From: Lachnospiraceae bacterium
GTDB taxonomy: Bacteria; Bacillota; Clostridia; Lachnospirales; Lachnospiraceae
Direction of reading: 5' to 3'
Length of the DNA: 53,111 bases
Assembly (NCBI GenBank): GCA_017557525.1
Contig: JAFYYN010000082.1
Location: 1-53,111, forward strand
Positions 39,530-53,111 of the stretch are shown here, in pieces; positions within the stretch are counted from its first letter, which is position 1, and every line of letters begins with the position of its first letter. The position numbers and the translations under genes are program-made. Below the pieces are notes generated by a model that had not been told where the DNA came from, did not search any database, and was given only the letters and a program-made list of their open reading frames with translations.

Positions 39530-40420
39530 ATGAACAAGAAAAACATAATGGCAGTACCCAAAATATACTTTTGCATTGTGATAGCAGTATGTGCGCTAGG
39601 CATAATTATTGGATCCTTTTTTGACTTTGATATAAATGTCGCTTTGGCAAATAAGACGGATATCGGAGCTTTTTTTGCCACATATGGATCGTATTTTTCA
39701 TATTGCCTATATCCTGCGGCAGGTATGTGTATTTTCAAGGGGCTTATGAAAAAGGGAAGCAGATACAGAATGCTTGCGTGGGTGGTCCTGGTAATTTCAT
39801 ATTTCATGGCAGTTTATTACAGTAACAACTATAACGGTTCGAAGGTGAGAGAACTGTTTGGCTATACAGCAGGTGAATCGTCTATGGCATTATCTTTCTT
39901 AAGCTGGGCATTCTGGGTGGTCCTATATGCATGGGTACCTTTTGTCTGCTACCGAATTTTTGACGATGCGGATACCGGTAAACTGATCATGACAGGAGCA
40001 GCCATACTCATTGCCGGTATTCTTGCTGACAATACCAACTTATGGCTGAAACAGGTGGCGTCAAGACCTCGGTATAAGTACCTGATCACACTTGAAGATC
40101 CTGCAGCAGGATTTCGTAACTGGTGGGATATGGTTCCTTACCTGGCCGGATCAAATGATAATTTCAAAAGTTGGCCAAGCGGTAATATGACCATAGCAAG
40201 TATGATGTTTTCTCTGCCAATGTTGGCAGATGTGTTGAAGAAGCGCTCAAATGCCAAAAACATGATCTGTTTTGTGGTTGCCGTAGTTTTCGTTATGATT
40301 TACGGCTATAACAGGATACATATGACAAACCATTTCCTTTCGGATGTGTGCTTTGGAACGCTTATTACCTATCTGATTTTTTCCGTGATAAGCACTGCTT
40401 TCTTAAAATCAAGAGAATAA
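39530..40420 (+). CDS. PAP2-family membrane phosphatase with altered motif 2
   Basis: A 296-residue polytopic PAP2 protein. Motif 1 is KQVASRPR, and motif 3 YNRIHMTNHFLSD keeps Arg, His and Asp. Motif 2, normally PSGH, reads PSGN with Asn219, so the general acid His is missing. PAP2 enzymes dephosphorylate lipid phosphates at the membrane; this one may be slow, altered or inactive. The sister gene at 42228 has a normal motif. Upstream gap of ~90 bp. Confidence 0.85.
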   Translation: MNKKNIMAVPKIYFCIVIAVCALGIIIGSFFDFDINVALANKTDIGAFFATYGSYFSYCLYPAAGMCIFKGLMKKGSRYRMLAWVVLVISYFMAVYYSNNYNGSKVRELFGYTAGESSMALSFLSWAFWVVLYAWVPFVCYRIFDDADTGKLIMTGAAILIAGILADNTNLWLKQVASRPRYKYLITLEDPAAGFRNWWDMVPYLAGSNDNFKSWPSGNMTIASMMFSLPMLADVLKKRSNAKNMICFVVAVVFVMIYGYNRIHMTNHFLSDVCFGTLITYLIFSVISTAFLKSRE

Positions 40421-40427
40421 AGATTCA

Positions 40428-40553
40428 TATAGTTGCAGCTCATATGAAACTGAGGCATTAAAGGTTCTCATAGAGTCTTTTGTTAATAAAGAAGAAAAGA
40501 TGGAATACAATGCAAAATCTTTCAGAAACTGGACTTTCAGAATGGATTTATGA
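40428..40553 (+). pseudogene. GNAT remnant: N- and C-termini joined
   Basis: An in-frame piece of 41 codons ending in TGA. It reads SYETEALKVLIESFVN, then EEKMEYNAKSFRNWTFRMDL. The first part matches residues ~8-25 and the second the last ~20 residues of the GNAT at 34547, with the ~165 residues between deleted. No start codon or ribosome binding site. It is a duplicate that lost its core. Confidence 0.85.
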
Positions 40554-40613
40554 GGAAGGTTGTGCCTGCATGTAAAAGCTAAAATCTATTTGACAGAACA
40601 GGGAGGTAAGGTA

Positions 40614-41852
40614 ATGGGAGACAATACAAAAGAAACTCAAAAATTTTCAAGGCGTAAAGAGATATATGAATACACACTTAAAAATGATATAAAATACCGG
40701 GGCCCGCTATCTTACAGGATGCTGAAGATAGTAGGATGGATTGCTCTGGCTTTTTCGCAGTATTTATTACTGGCAAAATTACAGAATAGCGTCTTAAAAA
40801 TTGATGAGCCGATAGCTTTTGGCAATACCATAAATGGGATTATAGTAGACCTGGCACTTCCGTTACTGCTTTTTGGTAATTTTGCCTTATTGTTGAACGG
40901 ACAAAATAAATTCAGAACTCATTTCCTGATAAACGGAGGTGCTTCGCTAGCCTTTATCATTGTATATTTTATAGTATATCAGCGCTATGTTATTGGTTTT
41001 GCTTCTGTGTTCACTGATACAAGGGCGGGGGCAATCACGAGTGTTGATAAATTCTTTTATCTCCTTAACGCTACATACGAGAACTTTTATGGATTTGTAG
41101 CATTTAATATTTTTATTGACATGTTCCTCTGTACACTTGGATGGTTTTTTATAGTATATACGCCAAAGAAATGGTTTAAGGGGAAGAAGATATATATATT
41201 CCGTTCTTTTGTACTTATACCGCTGATATATGAAATAGTTTGCATAGTATTGAAAATAAGAATTGCAAGTTTCCCAACAGAATTGTTGCCTGTTGCTTCG
41301 TTCCCTTTCCTTACCACGAAGCCACCGCTGGTTTTTATACTTTTTATGGCATTAGGTATTTATATAAAGCTCAGGGAAAGAAAGTTCCTTAAAACCGGGA
41401 AAACCAAAGAAGATTATCAGGCATTTTTAAAAACCAATAAGAACTCGCTTGATATAATGTTATTTGCGATCGTGGTGATGTTGGTCATCATAGTAATTGA
41501 TGAATTCTTACTTAAAGACCTTATTGTTCCAAGGATTGTGGCATCCAATAGGGGAATAATCCCTGAGGAATATGATTCAGCTTATGAATTTCTTATTGCA
41601 CCTGCAGTAAGTGCATGCGGAATCGGTGATATGAAAAACATGCTGCTTTTTACCCCACTTTTATTACTTTTTTCGTACACCAGAACCCACAAGCATACGA
41701 TAATCGATGCGGGAATAACAGTTCTGGGGATAGCCGGTATTGCATTGATCTACCTGGACGGAATAATGGGTATTATCAAAAACCTGTTAATTGTTATTAG
41801 AAATTCACCAGTTTATGATATTGTAGCTAATAGCTTTTTCCCGTTAGAATGA
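40614..41852 (+). CDS. Polytopic membrane protein of unknown family
   Basis: A 412-residue protein with about eight to nine membrane segments separated by short loops, and a ~50-residue hydrophilic N-terminus rich in Lys/Arg. No family recognised and no enzyme motif seen. Start 40614 follows GGGAGGTAAGG. It lies between two PAP2 genes, so a role in lipid or envelope handling is plausible but unproven. Very A/T-rich (15/60 G+C in 41101-41160). Confidence 0.75.
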   Translation: MGDNTKETQKFSRRKEIYEYTLKNDIKYRGPLSYRMLKIVGWIALAFSQYLLLAKLQNSVLKIDEPIAFGNTINGIIVDLALPLLLFGNFALLLNGQNKFRTHFLINGGASLAFIIVYFIVYQRYVIGFASVFTDTRAGAITSVDKFFYLLNATYENFYGFVAFNIFIDMFLCTLGWFFIVYTPKKWFKGKKIYIFRSFVLIPLIYEIVCIVLKIRIASFPTELLPVASFPFLTTKPPLVFILFMALGIYIKLRERKFLKTGKTKEDYQAFLKTNKNSLDIMLFAIVVMLVIIVIDEFLLKDLIVPRIVASNRGIIPEEYDSAYEFLIAPAVSACGIGDMKNMLLFTPLLLLFSYTRTHKHTIIDAGITVLGIAGIALIYLDGIMGIIKNLLIVIRNSPVYDIVANSFFPLE

Positions 41853-41926
41853 CCGATAAGTTAAAACGGCCTGTGTTGCAGACGCATAGGCTTTGGTGTC
41901 TTAAGTCTGCAAAACACTTTTGAATT

Positions 41927-42250
41927 ATGGATAATAAAAAGAAAATCGATATCACCTTACGAATTATTGAGAGCCTTACATTTATAGTCTCACTGTTTTT
42001 TTCGATGAAAATGCTGAGTCTTATTTCCGCTTGTTATGAAGACACATATCTGATAGTATTCTGCATTAATATATTTGCATTTGGACTGAGCGCTCTGAAT
42101 GCAAAGGGGAAGAATAAAATCAGCTTTTTTAAATTTGTATCAGCATCGGTCTATTATCTGATAATGACATTGCCAAGAAAAATGGCAATAAAAACTAACA
42201 GGACGATTATACGAGGAGAGATTGACTATGAAGAAAAATGGAGAATTTAA
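41927..42250 (+). CDS. Small membrane protein overlapping the PAP2 start
   Basis: A 107-residue protein with two or three hydrophobic segments (about 13-32, 41-58, 72-84) and a basic C-terminus. No ribosome binding site stands out; the upstream ATTATGG start is weak. Its last 23 bp overlap the start of the second PAP2 gene in another frame, suggesting coupled translation. Family unknown. Confidence 0.55.
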   Translation: MDNKKKIDITLRIIESLTFIVSLFFSMKMLSLISACYEDTYLIVFCINIFAFGLSALNAKGKNKISFFKFVSASVYYLIMTLPRKMAIKTNRTIIRGEIDYEEKWRI

Positions 42251-43118
42251 CAAATTAATTATCTTAAATTTTCTCATGCTGATATTTTTCATAAGTATGC
42301 TTCTGTTGGGAACATTCAACGATGAAGCCATTTCAAAGACCCTGTATTCGCCGGATAATCTGTCTTTGAAATTAATCACGGCAATAGGAGCATACCCGTT
42401 CTTTGCTTTTTGTGTTGTTTTTTCAGGAAGTTTGTTTGAACGCACTCTGCATTCAAATACAGGTAAAGGCCTAAAAATATTCTTAAGTATTTTGCTTGTA
42501 ATTTTTATAATATTCATCGGATTTATAGGTTCGGGAACACTGGCAGAACGTGACAGTCTCGGCAGTATATTTCCGAATATGGACAGGAATATCCCTGTAA
42601 TAGTTGTAATAAGTCTTGTAACTGTTTTCCCGCTGTGTTATCTTGGATACAGACTGGCTAAAAAGAGTGATGATCCAAAGCTTGTTAAACGTATATTATG
42701 TTTGTTCATTTTATTAGCGATAGCATATGCTTCGCTACAAGTTTTAAAAGGGGTATTTAACCGCCCAAGATACAGACTGGTCGTTACCGGGCAGGATGGT
42801 ATAGGATTCATCCCTTGGTATGAGCGTTTTACAGGAGCTTCGGAATATATAGAGAGTTATGGTATCAACAAAGGAGAGTTCCGATCCTTTCCCAGTGGCC
42901 ATAGTATTTTGAGTGCTTCTATGATCCTATGTTTTCAGACTCTGTCTTGGCTCTGTCCGAAGTTAAAAAACAAAAGGTTTCTTTTGGCTTTTCTTGGCTT
43001 TTTATTTTCGGTGATCATCATGCTTACTAGGATCATACTCGGAGCCCATTATCTGTCTGATGTATCTTTCGGTGCTATCATAGTTGTAATATTGTCATTC
43101 TGTTACAGCATAAAATAA
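42228..43118 (+). CDS. PAP2-family membrane phosphatase
   Basis: A 296-residue polytopic protein with all three PAP2 motifs: KGVFNRPR (motif 1), FPSGHS (motif 2) and TRIILGAHYLSD (motif 3). It should dephosphorylate a lipid or polyprenyl phosphate at the outer membrane face. The length equals that of the PAP2 at 39530, so the two are probably diverged paralogues. Start at ATG 42228 with GAGGAG upstream. Confidence 0.88.
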   Translation: MKKNGEFNKLIILNFLMLIFFISMLLLGTFNDEAISKTLYSPDNLSLKLITAIGAYPFFAFCVVFSGSLFERTLHSNTGKGLKIFLSILLVIFIIFIGFIGSGTLAERDSLGSIFPNMDRNIPVIVVISLVTVFPLCYLGYRLAKKSDDPKLVKRILCLFILLAIAYASLQVLKGVFNRPRYRLVVTGQDGIGFIPWYERFTGASEYIESYGINKGEFRSFPSGHSILSASMILCFQTLSWLCPKLKNKRFLLAFLGFLFSVIIMLTRIILGAHYLSDVSFGAIIVVILSFCYSIK

Positions 43119-43143
43119 ATACTTTTTTAAGGAGAAAATGCTT

Positions 43144-44067
43144 ATGGGTGATATCAATGAAAAAAGGCAAAATAATGATAAGCCTTTAAAAGAAATATCG
43201 ATAGAAGGCTGCGAGCTGCTCGGGAAGGGTGGAAACGGTGCTGTTTACAGATTGGACGATGAAAGAATAGTAAAAATATATTTCAGTAATCGTGCTGATT
43301 TTGAAAAGATTAAAAGAAACAGGGAGATTACTAAAACTGCATTTGTGCATGGTATACCTTCGATGATCGCCTTTGAGATGGTAAAGGTAGGACGGGATTA
43401 TGGTGTAATCTATGAAATGATCAACGCAAAGTCCTTCGGAGAGGAAATGTATCAAAATCCTGATAAGATTGATTTCTTCGCGCATATGATTGCAAGTACT
43501 CTTAAAAAACTGCACAGTACCGAATTTGAAGACGGTGTTTTGCCGGACTCGAGAGACCGGCTCCGTAATGAAGTAAAGATGACTTTAGATGCAGGCTTCT
43601 ATAAACCGGCTGAGGCTGAACGTGTATATAAGCTGATAGATACAATCCCCAAAAGAAACACATTCATACATCAGGATTTTCATCCGGGTAATCTTATGTA
43701 TCAAAATGGGGAGATCATGCTGATAGATGTTGATGATTCTGGTGTGGGACATCCGATTATGGATCTGGCGGCCATGCATCTGGTATATGTTACTGCCGCA
43801 AAATCTAAGTATAAAGTAACAGCCAACGGATTGACAAAGGATCAGTATGCAAGAGTATGGCATATCATACTTGAGGATTATTTTGAAACAAAGGATCCAA
43901 AGGTATTAGCAGAGTATGAGCGAAACATAGAAGGTTTTGCCATGATAAGTCTGATAAAGGGTGTGGCAACCTCGCCCAATGTTAAAAATTTTATTCGAAA
44001 ACCGGTATGTTATTTTATGAAAAAGAAATTCTTTAAGATTATCGATACGATACATCCTGTACCATGA
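43144..44067 (+). CDS. TIGR02172-like phosphotransferase (APH/kinase fold)
   Basis: A 307-residue protein with protein-kinase-like fold: glycine loop GKGGNGAVYRL, a Lys in VKIYF, catalytic HQDFHPGNLMY and metal-binding LIDVDDSG. The pattern is that of the TIGR02172 group of choline/aminoglycoside-kinase relatives common in Lachnospiraceae and Fibrobacter. Substrate unknown. Start 43144 has better spacing from GGAG than 43138. It is 25 bp after the PAP2 gene and probably cotranscribed. Confidence 0.85.
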   Translation: MGDINEKRQNNDKPLKEISIEGCELLGKGGNGAVYRLDDERIVKIYFSNRADFEKIKRNREITKTAFVHGIPSMIAFEMVKVGRDYGVIYEMINAKSFGEEMYQNPDKIDFFAHMIASTLKKLHSTEFEDGVLPDSRDRLRNEVKMTLDAGFYKPAEAERVYKLIDTIPKRNTFIHQDFHPGNLMYQNGEIMLIDVDDSGVGHPIMDLAAMHLVYVTAAKSKYKVTANGLTKDQYARVWHIILEDYFETKDPKVLAEYERNIEGFAMISLIKGVATSPNVKNFIRKPVCYFMKKKFFKIIDTIHPVP

Positions 44068-44113
44068 TCTTTAATTAATGTTTGTGATAATTTTATGATG
44101 GAGTAAAAATTTT

Positions 44114-44935
44114 ATGTTAAAAAATGAGATTTCCCTTCCGGGTATAAATAATGCAAGGGAGCTGGGAGGTTATAAAGCAGGAGACAAGGTTATAAAGCAT
44201 GGATTGCTTATAAGGACCGGAGCATTAAAAGATGCTGCGCCTGAAGCTGTAGAACTGCTAAAGAATAAATATAATCTAAAGGCTATAGTTGATTTCCGCA
44301 TGCAGAGTGAGAGAATAAATATTCCCGATCCTGAGGTGGAAGGCGCAAAATATTACGGTTTCTCGGTAGTTGAAATGGAGGATTATTTTGCCAGGGCAAA
44401 GGATGTAAGAGAGGTTGACAAGCAGTTGCTGTGGAAGACAAATGACAGGATGGCTTTGTTTGAACAGGCTTATGAGTATGGTATGCTCGGACCTGAGACC
44501 TATGTTTCGTTCCTTATGGAAGACAGAGGCAAAAAGGCATACAGGGAGTTTTTTAAAGTCCTTTTGGATGTTGAGGAAAATGCTGCAGTCCTATGGCATT
44601 GTACTGACGGAAAGGACCGTACAGGCCTGGCTGCTATGCTGATTCTTATCGCACTCGGAGCGGATAAAGATACCGTTATGGAAGATTATATGCTGACAAA
44701 TGTATATAATTCTCAGACTTTAGAATATGTTAAAAGCAGACTCGCCGGTTCCGATATGCCTCAGAGAAAACGTGATGCATTGATGTTTATGCTGGGTGGT
44801 GTTGTGGAAAGGTATATGACCGGTGCCATTGAGGCTCTTATAAATAGCTATGGGAGCGTCAAGGAGTATATGTTTGAAGAACTCAGTGTAGGAGATCCGG
44901 AACTGAAAGTTTTACGCAGAAAGTTTTTGGTATAG
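44114..44935 (+). CDS. Tyrosine-protein phosphatase-like protein (Tyr_phosphatase3)
   Basis: A 273-residue phosphatase of the Tyr_phosphatase3 type. The P-loop HCTDGKDRTG has the nucleophile Cys163 and the Arg of the C-x5-R motif. The N-terminal NARELGGYK and LIRTGALKDA are characteristic. Such enzymes act on phosphotyrosine or phosphoinositides, and the real substrate is not known. It follows the TIGR02172 kinase by 46 bp. Confidence 0.9.
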   Translation: MLKNEISLPGINNARELGGYKAGDKVIKHGLLIRTGALKDAAPEAVELLKNKYNLKAIVDFRMQSERINIPDPEVEGAKYYGFSVVEMEDYFARAKDVREVDKQLLWKTNDRMALFEQAYEYGMLGPETYVSFLMEDRGKKAYREFFKVLLDVEENAAVLWHCTDGKDRTGLAAMLILIALGADKDTVMEDYMLTNVYNSQTLEYVKSRLAGSDMPQRKRDALMFMLGGVVERYMTGAIEALINSYGSVKEYMFEELSVGDPELKVLRRKFLV

Positions 44936-44992
44936 TAAAACTGAATTTGAAAATACGATCATTATAAATGAGGGATTATGGCAGAGACTTAA

Positions 44993-45436
44993 CCTTGTCT
45001 TCATGTACTTGCCAATGATTATCATATCTATAAACGGAATGATAACAGCGTAACCATTAAGAAGCTTAAAGCGGCTACAGGCTATGACTATAAGGTGCGT
45101 GCGGTAGCAGACAAAGTTTTTGTCGGCCCGTTCAGTGATACATTATCCTGTGCAACGCTTCCTAAGAAGACCAAGGTATCAAATGTAGCTCTTTCGGGCG
45201 ACAGTTTCTCATTAACCTACAAAAAGGTTGCAGGAAGCGGTTATGAGATCCAGGTAGCTACCGACAAGAAGTTCAAGAGTATCGTAGCTGACGAGTCTGT
45301 AGCTGACATCAAGACTGTTAAGATTGCTAAAGATATTCCCGGAGCATCAGCTTTAAAGGGTTCCACACTCTATGTAAGAGTAAGGGCATACTTCACATAT
45401 AATGATGTGACAGTATATGGATCATGGAGCAGGTAA
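44993..45436 (+). pseudogene. Truncated FN3-domain gene remnant
   Basis: An open frame of 148 codons starting right after a stop, with no ATG or ribosome binding site near its beginning. It codes the end of one FN3 domain (YHIYKRNDNSVTIKKLKAAT, then YDYKVRAVADK) and a complete second (SFSLTYKKVAGSGYEIQ ... YVRVRAYFTYNDVTVYGSWSR). The stop lies exactly where such domains end. It is the 3' part of a lost surface-protein gene. The 159 bp before 45095 otherwise hold nothing. Confidence 0.75.
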
Positions 45437-45482
45437 AGAGTTTTAATGCCAAGTAATTAATAACTGAATAATATGTATTTCA

Positions 45483-45514
45483 GGGCACAATTATCTTAAC
45501 CGGTGATTGTGCCC
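45483..45514 (+). terminator. Stem-loop after the FN3 remnant
   Basis: GGGCACAAT (45483-45491) and ATTGTGCCC (45506-45514) pair perfectly around 14 bases. The following T-tract is weak (GATTTATTATT). Probably the old terminator of the truncated gene. Confidence 0.6.
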
Positions 45515-45595
45515 GATTTATTATTGAAATCTGATAGGATGTTTAGAAAAATCTCAATTCATTCTATGGGAATACAGAGGATGGAGTAAAATTCA

Positions 45596-45626
45596 TATAG
45601 TATTTTTATATACAATGTGGTATAGT
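45596..45626 (+). promoter_or_regulatory. Extended -10 promoter, family member 4
   Basis: TATAGT at 45596-45601 and 45621-45626, 25 nt apart, with ATTTTT after the first and TGG before the second. Almost identical to the copy at 6799. A further TATTAT lies at 45686-45691. Upstream of the HAD gene at 45750. Confidence 0.6.
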
Positions 45627-45749
45627 GATATATGGAATGTGTTCAATTATTTGACAAAGGGTTGCCGAAAAAGAAAATAGTGTGGTATTATAGTATGAAA
45701 ACAGCTCTGAGATACACCGGACTGAATCAGGCTGGAGAGGAGTAACGAA

Positions 45750-46382
45750 ATGATAAAGAATATGGTTTTTGATATAAGCAATGTACTTGCTCCGTTCAGA
45801 TTTAAGGAGTTTCTTGCAGAAAAAGGTTTTGACGGAGCGATGATAAAAAGGATTATCAAGGCTTCTGCTATGACACCATATTGGGTCGAATACGAAAAAG
45901 GAAAACTCACATACGAGGAGGCGATGGAAGCGTTTGTTAGTGCAGACCCTGATATAGCGGACGAACTACATAAGGCCTATGATTCATGTTCGGGTATTAT
46001 GGGCAGATATGATTATACCGAAGGCTGGATAGATTCACTGAAAAAAGCTGGTTACAAGCTTTATTGCATTACCAATTTTACACCTGCCGGATATGAACAG
46101 TGTTACGATTGCATTTCATTTATAGAAAAATTTGATGGTTGTATTTTTTCATTTAGAGAAGGCCTAGCGAAACCGGATCCGGAGATATACAAGACATTGC
46201 TGGGAAGGTATAACCTGAGAGCTGAAGAATGTGTGTTTATAGATGATACGGAAGAAAATGTACTTAGTGCTGAAAAGCTTGGATTTAAAGGAATAGTATT
46301 TTCGGGATATGAAGATGCGGTTTCCAGGCTTAATGATATTTGTAATAGTTCTGATTTAGACTACCTTAAGAGGCGTATATGA
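45750..46382 (+). CDS. HAD-family hydrolase, YihX-like
   Basis: A 210-residue HAD protein. Motif I is FDISNVLAP: Asp8 is present, but the usual second Asp is Ser10, as in the YihX-type group with D-x-G/S-N. Motif II is ITNFTPAG, motif III KPDPEIY, motif IV FIDDTEENV. A helical cap is present. The substitution matters because the second Asp is the acid/base in most HAD phosphatases. Start has GAGAGGAG. Substrate unknown. Confidence 0.85.
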   Translation: MIKNMVFDISNVLAPFRFKEFLAEKGFDGAMIKRIIKASAMTPYWVEYEKGKLTYEEAMEAFVSADPDIADELHKAYDSCSGIMGRYDYTEGWIDSLKKAGYKLYCITNFTPAGYEQCYDCISFIEKFDGCIFSFREGLAKPDPEIYKTLLGRYNLRAEECVFIDDTEENVLSAEKLGFKGIVFSGYEDAVSRLNDICNSSDLDYLKRRI

Positions 46383-46467
46383 AAATCGCAATTATACAGG
46401 CAACATCACAAATAAATAAGAACAAGTTAATATGTTCAGCGGTAAAAAAGGAAGGGAGAAGGTTGAA

Positions 46468-47550
46468 ATGACTGATAAGAATTCTTTTGAAACCGTCGAG
46501 TTGCTAAAGCCGATATCTCTGATACAGATAGACGGCAGCGAGCCGTTGTATGTTAAAGATGAAGCAGAGACTGTGCAAAGTTCTGTGAAAACGAACGACG
46601 TAACTGCAGATAATGCCATGACGGTAAGTGGTACTACCGATGTAACCCCCAAAACAGATATAAAAGCTAAAACGGAAATAACCCCCAAAACAGATGTGGA
46701 AGCTTCAGCAGAGCACGATACTCAAAAGGTGCTTGTGGACCCTAAAAAGCTTCTTGGTAATGACGAGGATTCCGGTGAAAGGCAGGATTATCAGAAGCAT
46801 AATTATGCCGCAAGATTCATTGTCTTCTGCGTTATAGTAATCGGTATCATTTTTACGCTGGTAATGGTAAGAAATTTTAAGGCTACGGACAAGCATACCG
46901 TTGCCGAGAGCAATTATAACCCGATACTAGTGTCGCAAGGGGAGGATACCAGCAGGTTTATCTATACCGGTGGGGCAGGTCTGAACATTGTCCCTGTTTA
47001 TAAGGAGATGGGTTTTGACGCGGATGAAATCGACGCCGATCTGCCTGTCATTATAAACCACAAGTGTGTGGAATATACGAATTCGTCCAATAGGATATTA
47101 TATTTTATGGCTACTCCGACTGAGGAAGATGTAGGTCTGATGATGAATGTGGAGATGTTTGACAGGTTTGGCCATTCATTTGGTGCTTCGGCAAACAGCA
47201 ATTGTGATGTGTCAGCAGGTGAAGAGTTCATGATCCCGATATTTTTCAGTTTGTCTCCTGGCGTGGATTTAAGCGGTGTAACCTACAAGATAAAGGCGGA
47301 GACATTTAAAGACAGGGAAGAAGCCTTGCTCAGAACAATCACGGATGTTACGGAGGCCGAAAAAGGACGCTTCCTTATCACATGTGAGGGTGCCACATAT
47401 TCCAGTGTGAATATATATGTCGCCATGTATAAGAACGGAAACGTGGTTTGCATTCTTTCGGGCTACAGTGATTTTGACGATAACGGAAAAGCGGTAGTTG
47501 AAGTTTACAAAGGCGATGTTGATTATGATACATATAAGGTGTTTTACTAA
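46468..47550 (+). CDS. Single-pass membrane protein with repeat-rich cytoplasmic part
   Basis: About 360 residues. The N-terminal ~110 residues are hydrophilic, with short repeats of T-P-K-T-D-V / A-K-T-E-I near residues 52-76. One membrane segment at ~115-137 is followed by ~220 residues of beta-rich sequence, likely outside. No family recognised. Start 46468 is preferred over 46432 because of its GGGAGAAGG site. It is 95 bp upstream of the EIIC-EAL gene in the same orientation, so they may be functionally linked. Confidence 0.7.
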   Translation: MTDKNSFETVELLKPISLIQIDGSEPLYVKDEAETVQSSVKTNDVTADNAMTVSGTTDVTPKTDIKAKTEITPKTDVEASAEHDTQKVLVDPKKLLGNDEDSGERQDYQKHNYAARFIVFCVIVIGIIFTLVMVRNFKATDKHTVAESNYNPILVSQGEDTSRFIYTGGAGLNIVPVYKEMGFDADEIDADLPVIINHKCVEYTNSSNRILYFMATPTEEDVGLMMNVEMFDRFGHSFGASANSNCDVSAGEEFMIPIFFSLSPGVDLSGVTYKIKAETFKDREEALLRTITDVTEAEKGRFLITCEGATYSSVNIYVAMYKNGNVVCILSGYSDFDDNGKAVVEVYKGDVDYDTYKVFY

Positions 47551-47644
47551 CGGAGAGAAATAATAAATAGTAAGTAGTAAATAGATAAAGCTGCCACACA
47601 TGGCGGAAAAATGTGAAAACCATACAGAAAGGAATTGCGGCTAT

Positions 47645-49741
47645 ATGAAGACAAGGACCAGAAAAAACATAAACACCATTGCCCAAACGATAAGGAACAG
47701 CCTGGCTATGGTCGTTCCAATACTGTTCATAGGCAGCATGACGGTCTTCCTTAATGGAATGCCCGTCGACGCATATCAGAAATTCCTTGATTCATTTCTG
47801 GGAGGGGTCCTTCGCAGCATAATTCAGGCCATACAGTATTCGACGGCAGGAATACTCGCAATATATCTGACCATTTCCATCAACCTGTGCTATATGAGCC
47901 GCACGGAAGAAGGGCAGCGCATGGTATTCAACTTCGGCAGCCTCTTGGGGTGTCTTACCGGGTATTGCATACTGGTGGGTTTTTTTTCGGGCGAGCCCGA
48001 CCTGTCGCTGCTATCCGGACAGGGCGTATTCAGTGCGCTCATTGCCGGCGTGGTAGGGTCGATGCTGTATCAGAAATTTGACAAGCTGTTCAATACCAGG
48101 AAAATGTTTTTCGTGGACGGTGCGGATTCGATATTCAACGCATCCCTGCATGTCATACTTCCGTTCATTGCCGTCACAATATGCTTCGCCGTAGCCAACC
48201 ACCTCATCACGGTGCTCTTCCAGGTGAACAGCGTGCAGCACCTCTTTATGAAGGTTCTGGAGACACTATTTATGAGGATGCAGCGTTCGTACTTAAGCGG
48301 ACTGCTCTTTCTTCTGTTCATCAGCATAATGTGGTGGTTTGGCATACATGGGAACAACGTGCTGAATCAGGTGGCGGAGGACATGTTCGTCCCCATCATA
48401 GCCGGACATATAGTCTCAAAGAGCTTTATTGACACCTTTGTAAATATGGGCGGTACCGGCTGCACCCTCGGCCTGTTGCTGGCAATGATAATATTTGGAA
48501 AACGCAGCTCCACGAAAAAATTGTCAGGGATGGCACTGCTACCGGGAGTCTTCAACATCGGGGAACTGATGGTGTTCGGATTCCCAGTAATCTATAACCC
48601 GTTGATGGCCATACCGTTCGTCCTGACACCGCTGTTGTGCTACACAAACGCATACCTGTTTACGGTTCTGGGCATAATGCCGCAGGTAGAAACCGAGGTA
48701 GTATGGACAACGCCCGCAATCATGAGCGGATACCTCGCGACCGGATCGGTAATGGGCATAGTGGTGCAGGTCCTGAACATTGTAATCGCGGTGGCATGCT
48801 ATGCGCCATTTGTGATAATGTATGAAAAGAAGTCTCTTAAGGAATCCTCTTCGGCAATGAATGAACTGGTCGGCATACTTAAGAAATGTGAAGAGACAAC
48901 GGAAGAGATAGTGCTTACGGAATGTGAAGGAAATGCAGGAAGATTGGCTAAACTTTTGGCTACAGATCTGGAGGTTTCTCTTTCTTCTGCAGACATAAAA
49001 GGTGACACGGGGAATACAGTCAGTCCGCTTTTGATAAAATACCAGCCGCAGTTTGACAATAAGGGCAACTGTATCGGAGCGGAATCATTGCTTAGATGGA
49101 ACCATGAGAGGTACGGGATAATCTATCCTCCTCTGGTCATACATCTGGCGAAAGAAAGCGGTAATCTGTATAAGCTTGAAACATATATCATAGAATGTTC
49201 GGTAAAGGATTCGGAAAGCTTCAGAAAATGCTTTGGTGAAAAATTTAAACTCAGTGTAAATGTAACTGTAACTACTTTGTATGATAAGAGATTTATGGAC
49301 TTTATAGAGGAACTTGCCCATCGCTATGAAATAAAGCCGGGGAATATCTGTATCGAGATTACGGAAGAAACGGAACTTGTCACTTCCGAGGAGACCGGCG
49401 AGCTGATCAAGAAAATCCGCTCCTTTGGCTATACTTTTGCTTTAGACGATTTCAGTATGGGTCATACTTCTCTTCAGTATCTGCAGCACAACCAGTTCGA
49501 TTTGGTGAAGCTGGATGGAAATCTTGTAAGATCCATATTGACCAATGCCCGTACAAAAGAGATAATCAACTCTATCGTATATCTGTCTAAATCATTGGAT
49601 TTTAAGGTTCTGGCGGAATTTGTGGAGACGCAGGAACAAAAGGAAGCATTGGAGGGGATAGGCTGTCTATTGTACCAGGGGTATCTTTATAGTCCGGCAG
49701 TGGACAGGGATTCTCTTATTGCGATGGGTAATGTAAAATAG
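47645..49741 (+). CDS. PTS EIIC-like membrane domain fused to an EAL domain
   Basis: About 698 residues (713 if the ATG at 47600 is used). Residues ~10-390 are a PTS EIIC of the lactose/cellobiose type: WWFGIHGNNVLNQV, GGTGCTLGLLLAM and FNIGELMVFGFPVIYNP. Residues ~440-698 are an EAL c-di-GMP phosphodiesterase; the catalytic Glu480 sits in ESL, and NVTVT, IEITEE, LDDFSMG, VKLDGN and AEFVETQEQ follow, so ligands appear complete. No EIIA, EIIB or HPr gene is near. It probably couples a sugar or other membrane signal to c-di-GMP breakdown. The EIIC part is far richer in G+C than the EAL part. Confidence 0.88.
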   Translation: MKTRTRKNINTIAQTIRNSLAMVVPILFIGSMTVFLNGMPVDAYQKFLDSFLGGVLRSIIQAIQYSTAGILAIYLTISINLCYMSRTEEGQRMVFNFGSLLGCLTGYCILVGFFSGEPDLSLLSGQGVFSALIAGVVGSMLYQKFDKLFNTRKMFFVDGADSIFNASLHVILPFIAVTICFAVANHLITVLFQVNSVQHLFMKVLETLFMRMQRSYLSGLLFLLFISIMWWFGIHGNNVLNQVAEDMFVPIIAGHIVSKSFIDTFVNMGGTGCTLGLLLAMIIFGKRSSTKKLSGMALLPGVFNIGELMVFGFPVIYNPLMAIPFVLTPLLCYTNAYLFTVLGIMPQVETEVVWTTPAIMSGYLATGSVMGIVVQVLNIVIAVACYAPFVIMYEKKSLKESSSAMNELVGILKKCEETTEEIVLTECEGNAGRLAKLLATDLEVSLSSADIKGDTGNTVSPLLIKYQPQFDNKGNCIGAESLLRWNHERYGIIYPPLVIHLAKESGNLYKLETYIIECSVKDSESFRKCFGEKFKLSVNVTVTTLYDKRFMDFIEELAHRYEIKPGNICIEITEETELVTSEETGELIKKIRSFGYTFALDDFSMGHTSLQYLQHNQFDLVKLDGNLVRSILTNARTKEIINSIVYLSKSLDFKVLAEFVETQEQKEALEGIGCLLYQGYLYSPAVDRDSLIAMGNVK

Positions 49742-49743
49742 TC

Positions 49744-49899
49744 TTAAATGACTTTCCATATTCTCGCGAGGATTATCGGATCATTGCCGGCTGGGCTATG
49801 GTTTTATATGGGATAAAAGATCAGACACCTGATATTGACTTGGGTTATAATAGTAGAATGGCTGACCAGCTCGAAGAGGAATTTAATAAAATATACTAA
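49744..49899 (+). pseudogene. Nucleotidyltransferase-like gene remnant
   Basis: An open frame without a start codon. It codes LNDFPYSREDYRIIAGWAMV, then LYGIKDQTPDIDLGY and a diverged tail ending in TAA. The G-W-A ... T-x-D-I-D-L core matches small nucleotidyltransferase-fold proteins. The N-terminus and most of the protein are missing. It starts immediately after the EIIC-EAL stop codon and ends 12 bp before a GNAT gene. Confidence 0.75.
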
Positions 49900-49911
49900 G
49901 AGGAATGATAC

Positions 49912-50352
49912 ATGAATTTGAAACGACTATCGATATGTGATAAAGAAGCCATAAAAGTACTGTTCACGAGTGTTTTCACAGGAGAGCCATGGAACGACGA
50001 TTGGTCTGATGGTAAGCAGCTTGACTTGTACATAGAAGACCTCTGCGGTCAGAGCTATTCACTGACATACGGACTTTACGATGGTGATGAGTTAATCGGA
50101 CTATCTATGGGATATATAAAACACTGGTACACGGGAACAGAATACATAATCAACGAACTGTGTATCAAGACCGACCGTCAGGGTTGCGGTGCCGGAACAT
50201 TTTTCCTGGTACAGATTGAAAAAGCCATAAAGGAAATGGGCCTTAAGCAGATATTCCTCCTCACGGACCGAGATGTGCCGGCTTATAATTTCTATAAAAA
50301 GAACAATTACGTTGAAGTTAGTAACCTAGTGCCGTTTGCTAAACAAATCTGA
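49912..50352 (+). CDS. GNAT-family N-acetyltransferase
   Basis: A 146-residue GNAT: EPWNDDWSD near the N-terminus, the A-motif TDRQGCGAGTFFLVQIEKA, and the B-motif VPAYNFYKKNNY. AGAGGAATG is upstream. The N-terminal W-N-D-D-W pattern occurs in the aminoglycoside 6'-N-acetyltransferase-like group, but resistance cannot be concluded. It stands between the nucleotidyltransferase remnant and an MBL-fold gene. Confidence 0.85.
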   Translation: MNLKRLSICDKEAIKVLFTSVFTGEPWNDDWSDGKQLDLYIEDLCGQSYSLTYGLYDGDELIGLSMGYIKHWYTGTEYIINELCIKTDRQGCGAGTFFLVQIEKAIKEMGLKQIFLLTDRDVPAYNFYKKNNYVEVSNLVPFAKQI

Positions 50353-50390
50353 CTTGGCATACGTACACATAATCTAAGGAGACACAACAA

Positions 50391-51068
50391 ATGGAACTAA
50401 AGAAGCTTACTAAACATATATGGTATATGCCTTTTGAGGAAGAACGTGATCGTCCGAATCTCGGATATATAAAGGGTGATAAGTGGAGTCTTGCCATCGA
50501 TGCGGGTCATTCTGAAGCGCATATCAGGGAATTTTACGATTTACTACGTAAGGAAGGTCTGTCTCTTCCAACACTTACGGTACTTACACACTGGCACTGG
50601 GATCATACTTTTGCTATGCACGCAGTAAACGGTCTCACCATAGCAAACAAGACAACAAACGGGCATCTTCTGGAATGCATAGAAAAGATAGAGAAGAACG
50701 GGCCTGACGCGTTCCTGAACATTTACGAAAGTATCCGAAAAGAATATATAGGCAATAAAGAAATGATCGTTGTTCCGGCCGATATTGTTTTCGAGGGATG
50801 CATGACGATCGATCTTGGCGGATGCACGGTTAACATCCTTCAGACTGAGGCTCCTCATACTGACGATTCAACACTTGTTTATGTGTGCGAGGATAAAACT
50901 CTCTTTGTCGGCGATGCTACCTGTGCGCAATTTCCTAATGGTGCCAAGGATAAAAAACTTGCGAATGAATTGGCTGACAAAATCCGTTCGACGGGTGCTG
51001 TCACCTGTGTTGAGGGACATTGGCAGCCTGTAGAGACTGAAGATACCCTGAGGGATCTTCTTGGCTGA
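50391..51068 (+). CDS. Metallo-beta-lactamase-fold hydrolase
   Basis: A 225-residue MBL-fold protein. The metal-binding motif is THWHWDH (His67, His69, Asp71, His72), with the following TEAPHTDDSTLVYV (third-motif His) and FVGDATC Asp. It is probably a Zn2+ or Fe hydrolase of the glyoxalase-II-like/quorum-quenching range; nothing indicates beta-lactam use. RBS AAGGAG. A small ACT gene follows ~120 bp later. Confidence 0.9.
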   Translation: MELKKLTKHIWYMPFEEERDRPNLGYIKGDKWSLAIDAGHSEAHIREFYDLLRKEGLSLPTLTVLTHWHWDHTFAMHAVNGLTIANKTTNGHLLECIEKIEKNGPDAFLNIYESIRKEYIGNKEMIVVPADIVFEGCMTIDLGGCTVNILQTEAPHTDDSTLVYVCEDKTLFVGDATCAQFPNGAKDKKLANELADKIRSTGAVTCVEGHWQPVETEDTLRDLLG

Positions 51069-51190
51069 TGTATCGGGAAAGTTTGCGTAAGGATACGTGA
51101 TAATCGCAATATAACTTGGTAAGAAAAATTGCAAAATTCCGGTTTTTCTAACTAAATTATCTTTGAATTAAAAACGACTACGAGGTTGAT

Positions 51191-51556
51191 ATGGAATTAA
51201 AGAGATTATCACATAACTTAACAGTGTGTAAAGTCAATAGTATAAAAGACATTTGCTTTGATACAGAGTTTTTCTTTATAGGAAAGACTGATGAAGAAAT
51301 CTCACTTGTTTGCAAAACAGAAGATACACCTACAGGTACTATCGAGCGCGAGGATGGATGGAACGGATTTCGGATTCAGGGAATACTTGATTTTTCACTG
51401 ATCGGGATACTGTCTAAACTGTCAACTATCCTTGCAGAAAATGAAATAGGTATTTTTGCTGTCTCGACATACAATACGGACTATATACTTGTTAAGTCAG
51501 AGAATTTTGAAAAAGCAATGAGTGTTTTGGAAGAACAAGGATATAGGGTGGTTTGA
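51191..51556 (+). CDS. ACT-domain protein
   Basis: A 121-residue protein. It contains a C-terminal ACT module of the CASTOR/ACT_7 kind: FRIQGILDFSLIGILSKLST, then LAENEIGIFAVSTYNTDYILV. Such stand-alone proteins bind amino acids or other small ligands and often repress or protect partners. TAC-GAGG precedes the ATG. No clear operon partner; a terminator is not seen. Confidence 0.85.
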   Translation: MELKRLSHNLTVCKVNSIKDICFDTEFFFIGKTDEEISLVCKTEDTPTGTIEREDGWNGFRIQGILDFSLIGILSKLSTILAENEIGIFAVSTYNTDYILVKSENFEKAMSVLEEQGYRVV

Positions 51557-51609
51557 TTTTATCTTTTAATATAAATGAGTATGACAAATCGGAATTTTGG
51601 AGGTAAAAC

Positions 51610-52878
51610 GTGGAACAGAGACTTTTTACGGGGATTCGCCCCTTATATTCATCGAGTAAAATGAATCCAAATGAAATCAGGATCAGGATCCGGATGCGTG
51701 ACCTGATCGAACCTGTCGTTCTGCGTCATGCAGTGGATACCACCATGCAGCGGTACCCCTACTTCTGTGTCGAGCTTCAGAAGAAGGACGGGCAGTACGT
51801 TTTTGTAGATAACAACCGACCTGTTGTAATAAGCAATTCTTTTCACGGCGTGGAATTGAATGCAGAAGCGTCGAACTATCACATGGTAGCTTTTGCGTAT
51901 CAAGACAACTGGATCATCTTTGATGTGTTTCACGGACTGACAGATGGAACCGGTGCGTATGAAGTGATTCGTACCCTTCTATACTATTACTGTTCCGAAA
52001 GATATGGGGTAAAGCTCAAGGAAGAAGGAATTCGCCTTGCTGGAGATGAGATCAGTGACGAGGAATGGACAGATCCGGTCGAAACTGCAACTGACCTGCC
52101 AACTCCTGTTCGTTCTGAAATACCAAAGGCTCTCAGTATCATCGAAAACGCGCAACTGCAGGATGACACAGTAAAGACGGTCTACAGCGTAGCAATCGAT
52201 GAATCAGAGTTTATGAATTTCAGCATGGACAATGATGGCAGTCCCGGAACGATAACCGCATTGTTCTTAAGCCGCGCAGTTGCAAAGCTGTTCCCAAATG
52301 CTGATGATCCGATCAGGGTCACTCTTTGTGTGAACCAGAGGAAAGCTCTTCATAAACCGAAGGCTCATCATAGCCTCGTCGGTGGTGCCATGCTTGAATA
52401 CAAAGAAAAGATGCGTAAATGGCCTCTGGACAGACAGGCGACAGCATACCGGGGTATGGTATTCGCTCAGACGATGGATGAGACTGTTCTGGCAGGAGTC
52501 AACAGTCTAAAGGGTCTCACACAGATGCTGCTGTCCAAGGAAACCGATCAGGAGCGGCTTGGCATTTCGGCATTCATTGCAAAAACTACAGATGAAATAT
52601 TGACAGCTACGGTCAGTTATGTGGGCAAGGCAAACTACAAAGAAGCTGAAAAGTACATCCGGGATTTCCGGACCTGGACAGGTGCAACAGGACATTATCC
52701 TTGTATTGAGATTGCCGCTGTGAACGGTCGTTTCACACTTGATTTTATTCAGCCATTTTCAAGCCCATTGATTGTGAATGCTTTTTTGAAAGAACTTGAC
52801 GATAGCGGTATTACCTATGATCTGCAGGATGTGGCAGTACTGGATGTGCCAAATATCAGGCTTCCATGGAGTGTATGA
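51610..52878 (+). CDS. Condensation/alcohol-acetyltransferase-like enzyme
   Basis: A 422-residue acyltransferase of the CoA-dependent (condensation/AATase) fold. The catalytic signature HxxxDG is present as FHGLTDGTGAYEV (His108, Asp112). A second conserved segment is the late DFIQPF-type motif. In fermenting clostridia such proteins make esters or acylate sugars or peptides; no carrier protein or NRPS is next to it. RBS TTGGAGG. G+C is somewhat raised (28/60 in 51661-51720). Confidence 0.8.
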   Translation: MEQRLFTGIRPLYSSSKMNPNEIRIRIRMRDLIEPVVLRHAVDTTMQRYPYFCVELQKKDGQYVFVDNNRPVVISNSFHGVELNAEASNYHMVAFAYQDNWIIFDVFHGLTDGTGAYEVIRTLLYYYCSERYGVKLKEEGIRLAGDEISDEEWTDPVETATDLPTPVRSEIPKALSIIENAQLQDDTVKTVYSVAIDESEFMNFSMDNDGSPGTITALFLSRAVAKLFPNADDPIRVTLCVNQRKALHKPKAHHSLVGGAMLEYKEKMRKWPLDRQATAYRGMVFAQTMDETVLAGVNSLKGLTQMLLSKETDQERLGISAFIAKTTDEILTATVSYVGKANYKEAEKYIRDFRTWTGATGHYPCIEIAAVNGRFTLDFIQPFSSPLIVNAFLKELDDSGITYDLQDVAVLDVPNIRLPWSV

Positions 52879-52988
52879 AGGGAAGTCATCAATGAACTTG
52901 TAAATTCCAGTTTGTCGGGATGAGGGCATAGCCTTTTATCTCGGAAGATAACTTTCTAATACAAATCGGAACTTGAGGATATGTTTGT

Positions 52989-53111
52989 ATGGATTTAGCA
53001 ACTCATTATGATTTATTGATAGACGAAAATAATGACCCTTTTCGTGACCCGCCTATATTGCAAGAATATATGTGCAAATGGGATGGTGAAGAATTTTGTG
53101 AAGCGTTAGAA
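52989..53111 (+). CDS. Partial SAM-dependent methyltransferase (5' end)
   Basis: The frame begins at ATG 52989 (after GAGGATATG) and runs off the window. It codes MDLATHYDLLIDENNDP, then FRDPPILQEYMCKWDGEEF, the N-terminal pattern of small class I methyltransferases whose SAM motif I would come next. The catalytic region is outside the window, so the family is a likely call only. Confidence 0.65.
   Translation, partial: MDLATHYDLLIDENNDPFRDPPILQEYMCKWDGEEFCEALE

Follow-up and report, generated by a model that had tools for sequence, protein, structure and literature searches.

An EIIC-EAL fusion gene

The window, by which we mean the whole stretch of 53,111 nucleotides that was analysed, carries on its plus strand a single open frame (47600..49741, +; 713 codons plus stop) that joins a PTS permease domain to an EAL domain. 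Both domains score over their Pfam cut-offs, PTS_EIIC (PF02378) at aa 33-344 with 96 bits against 30.7 and EAL (PF00563) at aa 479-699 with 178.7 bits against 31.3, in agreement with the original prediction, which had read an EIIC membrane domain and an EAL domain in one frame. Residues are counted here from the first ATG. The true start of the gene may well be 47645, the in-frame M16, because methionine is common at this position in the aligned fusion proteins (33/54), and the M1 column is filled in 13 proteins with methionine in one, the window's own.

The EIIC domain occupies 47663..48853 (+; aa 22-418). The NCBIfam lacE subfamily model matches it over aa 25-416 with 199.2 bits, under the curated cut-off of 236, and its only solved relative at E <= 0.001 in a sequence search is ChbC (3qnq; E 4.8e-36, 128 bits, aa 30-416), the IIC of the diacetylchitobiose PTS from Bacillus cereus. 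Judged by these matches, the EIIC half is a divergent homologue of the lactose/cellobiose PTS IIC family. ChbC functions together with IIA and IIB. The two proteins have the GIHG and FNI-x-E motifs in common, whereas the EAL tail and the failure to find partners are features of the fusion. His250 (codon at 48347..48349, +) aligns with the GIHG histidine of ChbC and is kept in 53 of 54 fusions; Glu322 (48563..48565, +) aligns with the FNI-x-E glutamate and is likewise kept in 53, with Asp in one; Asn319 is kept in all 54, alongside many Gly and Pro of the EIIC fold. These residues persist across fusion proteins with as little as 25% identity in EIIC, and one distant fusion, L022, has lost both pocket residues, the His and the Glu. 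The missing EP dipeptide beside the catalytic Glu was considered as a mark of sensory EIICs and rejected, since ChbC itself has EM there.

The linker between the domains (48854..49024, +; aa 419-475) is mostly helical up to aa 463 in an AlphaFold2 model, which also predicts a single helix at aa 384-433 (48749..48898, +) running from the last EIIC membrane helix into the linker. This model (pTM 0.67) is the sole source for the helix and for the orientation of the domains, and its EIIC half superposes poorly on 3qnq (rmsd 10.1).

The EAL domain follows at 49025..49738 (+; aa 476-713), as delimited by domain search and residue alignment, and its nearest solved relatives are BifA (8arv), Bd1971 and PA3825. 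Its set of catalytic residues, as defined by RocR-type enzymes, is complete: the window's fusion has E495, N554, E586, E589, D616, D617, K637, E673 and Q693, each shared by 53 or 54 of the 54 aligned rows. Domain fold, model score and catalytic residues thus agree at the sequence level with a c-di-GMP phosphodiesterase, and support the prediction of this activity for the EAL half. The loop-6 motif DDFSMGHTS (49445..49471, +; aa 616-624) includes a mark of the whole fusion clade, DDF[SG]MG. Of 66 fusion frames, which include three pairs of identical copies, 62 have this motif and the remaining four stop before loop 6; it occurs in none of 21 non-fusion EALs. Among the shortened frames, L067 (4959-6782), L070 (4959-6854) and L093 each end in a distinct way before catalytic loop 6, and a kinase gene adjoins all three. 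Two other fusions are broken, L011 by an in-frame TGA and L100 by a frame break, perhaps through decay or sequencing errors.

The neighbours scanned in the window encode a tyrosine phosphatase, a HAD hydrolase, a GNAT acetyltransferase, a metallo-beta-lactamase-fold protein and two proteins without a credible family. Just upstream of the fusion lies a gene for a 372-aa protein (46432-47550) whose best Pfam match, at E 0.0047, is under the cut-off. Apart from the fusion, only one of the ORFs in 40001-53111 (at 51.6-52.9 kb) clusters with a relative's locus, and solely with L047. No RNA family matched the window at gathering score, so no c-di-GMP riboswitch is seen in it.

Origin and spread of the fusion

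Fusions of this kind were found in at least 19 of 150 family genomes drawn evenly (counting that of the window, and with an in-frame stop in one of the 19), and, by frame size, in at least 43 of 397 family genomes, plus one cut by a contig end. Among the 29 loci fetched from the latter set, 28 have the EAL and the other is the one cut at the contig end. At the named loci the fusion is present in 39 of 41, the remaining two being contig ends with EAL only. It occurs in at least 5 of 24 genomes of the same genus, again counting the window's own, and, in a sample of the phylum, in at least 5 of 398 genomes, which belong to five other families, plus one broken frame. Since the genome searches scored the best few candidates of each genome, every such count is a minimum. 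The named close relatives are mainly Lachnospiraceae, and the relatives of the window's bacterium are animal-gut dwellers. The fusion gene is apparently an old, patchily kept gene of Bacillota, present mostly in the window's family.

The trees of the two halves took in 14 close relatives (L062, L064, L067, L068, L070, L072 and L090-L093 are among those left out). In the EAL tree, the 39 rows from fusions (two are broken frames) cluster to the exclusion of 19 other EALs, with support of 100/99; 11 of these 19 come from the window's own genome, whose 13 other EALs are represented except for L087, a fragment, and L088, not reached by the search. In the EIIC tree, 27 unfused EIICs fall on one side of a branch supported at 100/97, and the 39 fusions lie opposite, together with an EIIC fused to a kinase. 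"Unfused" here denotes a frame without EAL, and these sequences were taken either as the top hits of a profile built on fused EIICs or from the search of 150 family genomes. The kinase fusion and several EAL fusions have long branches. The EIIC tree has no root; when it is split at its midpoint, L020, L095, L097, L098 and L099, all fusions, sit as a grade on the unfused side, and unfused EIICs may have come from fused ones or the reverse. The window gene has both domains in frame and groups with the fusions in both trees. Taken together, the EAL and EIIC trees point to one old, widespread fusion event that preceded the spread through families, and this speaks for such an event as the explanation of the gene.

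A composition step inside the gene

The gene is markedly uneven in composition. The five hand counts of G+C from which the original prediction started (38, 35, 32, 27 and 20 of 60) are exact on recount, and the change that it placed near 48810 is found by computation at codon 398 (nucleotide ~48794), so that a uniform composition, which would have spoken against the prediction, was not observed. GC3 is 0.648 before this codon and 0.438 after it (z 5.6); none of 20,000 permutations of the codon order and none of 5,000 synonymous shuffles preserving the amino acids gives a step as large. Stratified by amino acid, the GC3 contrast between the halves has an odds ratio of 2.2 (z 4.7). The step is the largest among the 18 window ORFs of >=330 codons, the next reaching 3.26, and exceeds any in 154 ORFs of >=450 codons from other loci (best 4.76; a few of the ORFs being duplicates). 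The 51 ORFs of the window have a mean GC3 of 0.420 (SD 0.065) and, therefore, it is the EIIC half that is odd, at 3.5 SD above this mean, while the EAL half is typical. A three-segment fit places the GC3-rich tract at codons 90-398 (47867..48793, +), with a start between codons 11 and 105 and an end between 389 and 414 within 2 lnL.

A sharp step at a domain boundary, with one half aberrant and the other typical of the window, is what would be expected if a foreign EIIC had been inserted before a resident EAL gene in this genome, as the original prediction held in proposing a transferred EIIC joined to a native EAL. The relatives speak clearly against such a recent chimera. We compared GC3 in 54 frames, each matching the window's protein from residue 60 or earlier through to residue 600 or later; L011, L064, L068, L070, L072 and L074 (broken or cut) and duplicates of the window locus were left out, and L067 with its short EAL was retained. 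In the 36 close full-length relatives, which show 59-77% identity over the matched part and were picked as near full-length matches, GC3 of EIIC minus that of EAL averages -0.0005 (SD 0.046, range -0.089 to 0.090); in 17 distant fusions it averages -0.013 (SD 0.045); in the window fusion it is 0.183. That all these relatives carry the fusion follows from the selection itself, which demanded a near full-length match. Furthermore, the EAL half lies in a clade of fusions only, apart from the 11 resident EALs in the tree, and the EIIC half is nearest to the EIICs of other fusions, at 73% identity or less. The phylogenies of the halves thus match at the level of the fusion clade, and we find a recent chimera hardly credible. 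Because the close relatives show no GC3 difference between their halves, the step is a property of the allele of this genome and not a mark of the origin of the fusion.

What, then, produced the step? A composition effect of the membrane segments was considered and rejected, since relatives are without the step and synonymous shuffles fail to reproduce it. We suggest that the tract may be a later replacement of ~0.9-1.2 kb of the EIIC half by the homologous allele of a GC-richer relative, and the low-high-low composition within one intact frame fits such an allele replacement. No donor stands out among the relatives compared: the best identities to the window are 0.73 for EIIC (L066) and 0.875 for EAL (L051), with other close relatives little lower. 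In trees of the half-genes among close relatives, the position of the window is weakly supported for either half, too weakly to amount to a conflict. As no donor was found and these trees are weak, the replacement is argued from composition alone. The step could also be an artefact of the assembly, with two strains joined in the contig, or a local effect of codon usage. The assembly is in 196 contigs and 92.5% complete, and the missing donor of the tract would suit an artefact. Yet a low-high-low tract would need two joins inside one intact frame, and an effect of codon usage is at odds with a step that survives amino-acid-preserving shuffles and that relatives do not have. We consider these explanations distinctly unlikely. 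Either way, the case cautions that a GC step within a gene need not mark a fusion point.

PTS partners of the fusion

The fusion appears to be an orphan of the PTS. No IIA or IIB was found among the neighbours scanned, as the original prediction had already remarked for the adjacent genes, and searches for lactose/cellobiose IIA (PF02255) and for IIB (PF02302) gave no match in the genome. The assembly being 92.5% complete, such genes could hide in a gap. The genome (G000) does have enzyme I (PF05524 match) and one complete EIIBCA protein, whose gene adjoins one that, by eye, reads like a sucrose-type glycoside hydrolase. Among the 28 fusion genomes tested, which are those known before the survey of 397 genomes and exclude its additions, 24 are without the lactose-type IIA and 15 without a PF02302 IIB; these same 15 are without both. 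At least 13 have some PF02302 IIB, and at least 4 of them also have the lactose-type IIA. In the 19 fusion genomes of good quality, PF02302 is found in 11 and PF02255 in 3, so some IIB is not rare among carriers; many of the PF02302 matches are frames of 600-700 codons, i.e., fused proteins. Because PF02255 and PF02302 have no match in the window's genome and both are absent from 15 of the 28 carriers, we do not file the fusion as a PTS transporter.

The nearest unfused EIICs have small neighbour genes that, by eye, read like IIB and IIA. A different arrangement is seen on another contig of the window's own genome, where ~55 bases separate the gene of an unfused EIIC of 362 aa (L003 1447-3673, contig C84) from a GGDEF gene downstream of it, and the 3.8 kb covered there shows neither IIA nor IIB. 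With the fusion and this GGDEF-adjoining EIIC, two of the three PF02378 proteins of the genome are, by domain content and gene order, tied to c-di-GMP enzymes.

Histidine kinases linked to the fusion

EIICs of this kind are also linked to histidine kinases, which we read as a hint of a receptor function. In one genome (L023 1-2868, -; L142), the EIIC is fused to a hybrid histidine kinase with HisKA, HATPase and receiver domains. A search at E 1e-80 found this architecture in at least 1 of 397 family genomes, and its EIIC groups with two EAL fusions (97/93) on a long branch.

A second link is one of neighbourhood. Directly upstream of the fusion, 16 of 36 close relatives with >=500 upstream bases have a hybrid kinase gene, which in 13 of the 16 overlaps the open frame of the fusion. 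One example is the 7TM hybrid kinase gene at L043 2098-4983, and the same is seen at 15 other close loci. The three copies scanned (L043, L061 and L053) have a 7TM sensor, HisKA, HATPase, receiver and Hpt. In 15 copies of the kinase, 14 upstream and one downstream (in L053), the sensor part is 60-68% identical to that of L043; the kinase downstream in L073 is a different one. Ten of these adjacent kinases served to build the detector, and a partial upstream frame of the kinase cluster in L055 fell short of its threshold. Among 25 distant loci, this kinase is never upstream, and a kinase lies downstream in one. No ortholog of the adjacent kinase is present in the window's genome, the best match being 24% identical (E 2.7e-11).

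Proposed function

The reading that we favor, and to which we give a fair probability, is that the fusion is a partnerless EIIC sugar receptor that sets c-di-GMP hydrolysis by the EAL half through a helix, the GC-rich tract being a later event. The EIIC half would be a PTS permease domain no longer served by phosphorylation partners. Its pocket may bind an oligosaccharide of the beta-disaccharide type, and the binding, or the elevator-like motion that accompanies it, could shift the substrate-carrying part of the EIIC. The long helix that starts in the last membrane segment would relay this movement to a C-terminal pair of EAL domains, whose activity would be set by the relay, such that the availability of sugar alters c-di-GMP hydrolysis. 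The sugar effect could have either sign, and the EIIC half presumably does not transport. The original prediction had described a c-di-GMP phosphodiesterase that responds to sugar and may have no transport activity. The orphan EIIC, the pocket and catalytic residues kept and the presence of an EIIC on a kinase are in line with this description, which we retain by inference, and suggest that the fusion probably works as a sugar sensor. The second partnerless EIIC of the genome, beside a GGDEF gene, points the same way.

Some observations fit this proposal less well. The conserved pocket residues would equally suit a working transporter, the EALs of L067, L070 and L093 stop before loop 6, and L022 is without the pocket residues. 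The main rival of the sensor reading is a transporter that borrows a IIB. The protein would import and phosphorylate its sugar in the manner of a working PTS transporter, and the EAL would be a regulatory tail reporting transport. Borrowed phosphorylation keeps some plausibility because 13 of the 28 carriers have PF02302, 4 of them with PF02255 as well, and because the window's genome, where enzyme I is present, has the complete EIIBCA. In known systems, however, EIICs of the lactose family are served by IIBs of the lactose type, 15 of the 28 carriers have neither PF02255 nor PF02302, and no IIA or IIB is seen beside the window gene. We regard a borrowed IIB as unlikely.

Alternatively, the EIIC could be a mere membrane anchor and dimerisation scaffold for the EAL, without ligand. 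This would fit the faster divergence of the EIIC, whose mean pairwise identity is 0.68, against 0.79 for the EAL, in the 36 close rows, and 0.34 against 0.40 in the 17 distant ones, as well as the one distant fusion devoid of both pocket residues. A scaffold is harder to reconcile with the retention of the pocket His and Glu in all but one of the 54 fusions, of Asn319 in every one, and of many Gly and Pro of the fold, down to 25% identity. We think it improbable that the EIIC is only an anchor.

A sensory EIIC could have implications beyond this gene. We propose tentatively, and with slightly more doubt than confidence, that partnerless EIICs constitute a plug-in class of sugar receptors in the membranes of gut Bacillota. 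Their output would be c-di-GMP hydrolysis and, in one instance, a hybrid histidine kinase, and some of them would work in an operon with a dedicated kinase.

Known systems and implications

The combination of an EIIC with a c-di-GMP enzyme is one that we take as already known, since the passages on EIIC in the 2022 review "Sensory Perception in Bacterial Cyclic Diguanylate Signal Transduction" list PTS_EIIC with GGDEF, EAL and/or HD_5 in Pfam, giving no separate number for EAL (PMC8846402). There, PTS_EIIC is called a rare input domain of c-di-GMP proteins and is treated as a phosphoreceiver that governs the output by its state of phosphorylation (PMC8846402). In those proteins, as in the fusion, the EIIC is the input of a c-di-GMP enzyme; the phosphoreceiver model contrasts with our finding that 15 of 28 carriers are without both lactose-type donors. 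The passages of the review on EIIC mention neither the fusion clade nor its residues or kinase relatives (PMC8846402). The new content here is the missing partners, the common origin and the links to kinases.

Other systems offer parallels. In Vibrio cholerae, EIIA-Glc links the PTS to the c-di-GMP phosphodiesterase PdeS (PMC6877527), such that sugar supply tunes a phosphodiesterase through the PTS, which parallels the role proposed for the fusion. The difference is that EIIA-Glc interacts with a separate enzyme, whereas in the fusion the membrane EIIC is part of the enzyme. Transporter domains also serve as the input of signaling proteins in the SLC5-histidine kinase proteins CbrA, described as transporting histidine (preprint PMC13022988), and CrbS (PMC5715377), where both the transporter fold and the output differ from those of the fusion. 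By analogy, CbrA is a precedent for a transporter domain acting as input. In the open-licence literature, covered through titles and the starts of abstracts, and with subscription papers mostly outside, we found no experiment on an EIIC-EAL protein.

These results suggest that an EIIC in a signaling protein need not be a phosphoreceiver and that, in most carriers tested, effects of sugars would not be attributable to a lactose-type IIA. The idea of a receptor is testable because partners are missing in most of these carriers. If it is true, the fold of a PTS permease can act as a receptor without phosphotransfer. In other bacteria, c-di-GMP runs the switch between motile and sessile life; the fusion, if it works as we propose, would give sugars a direct hold on this switch in bacteria of the rumen and gut.
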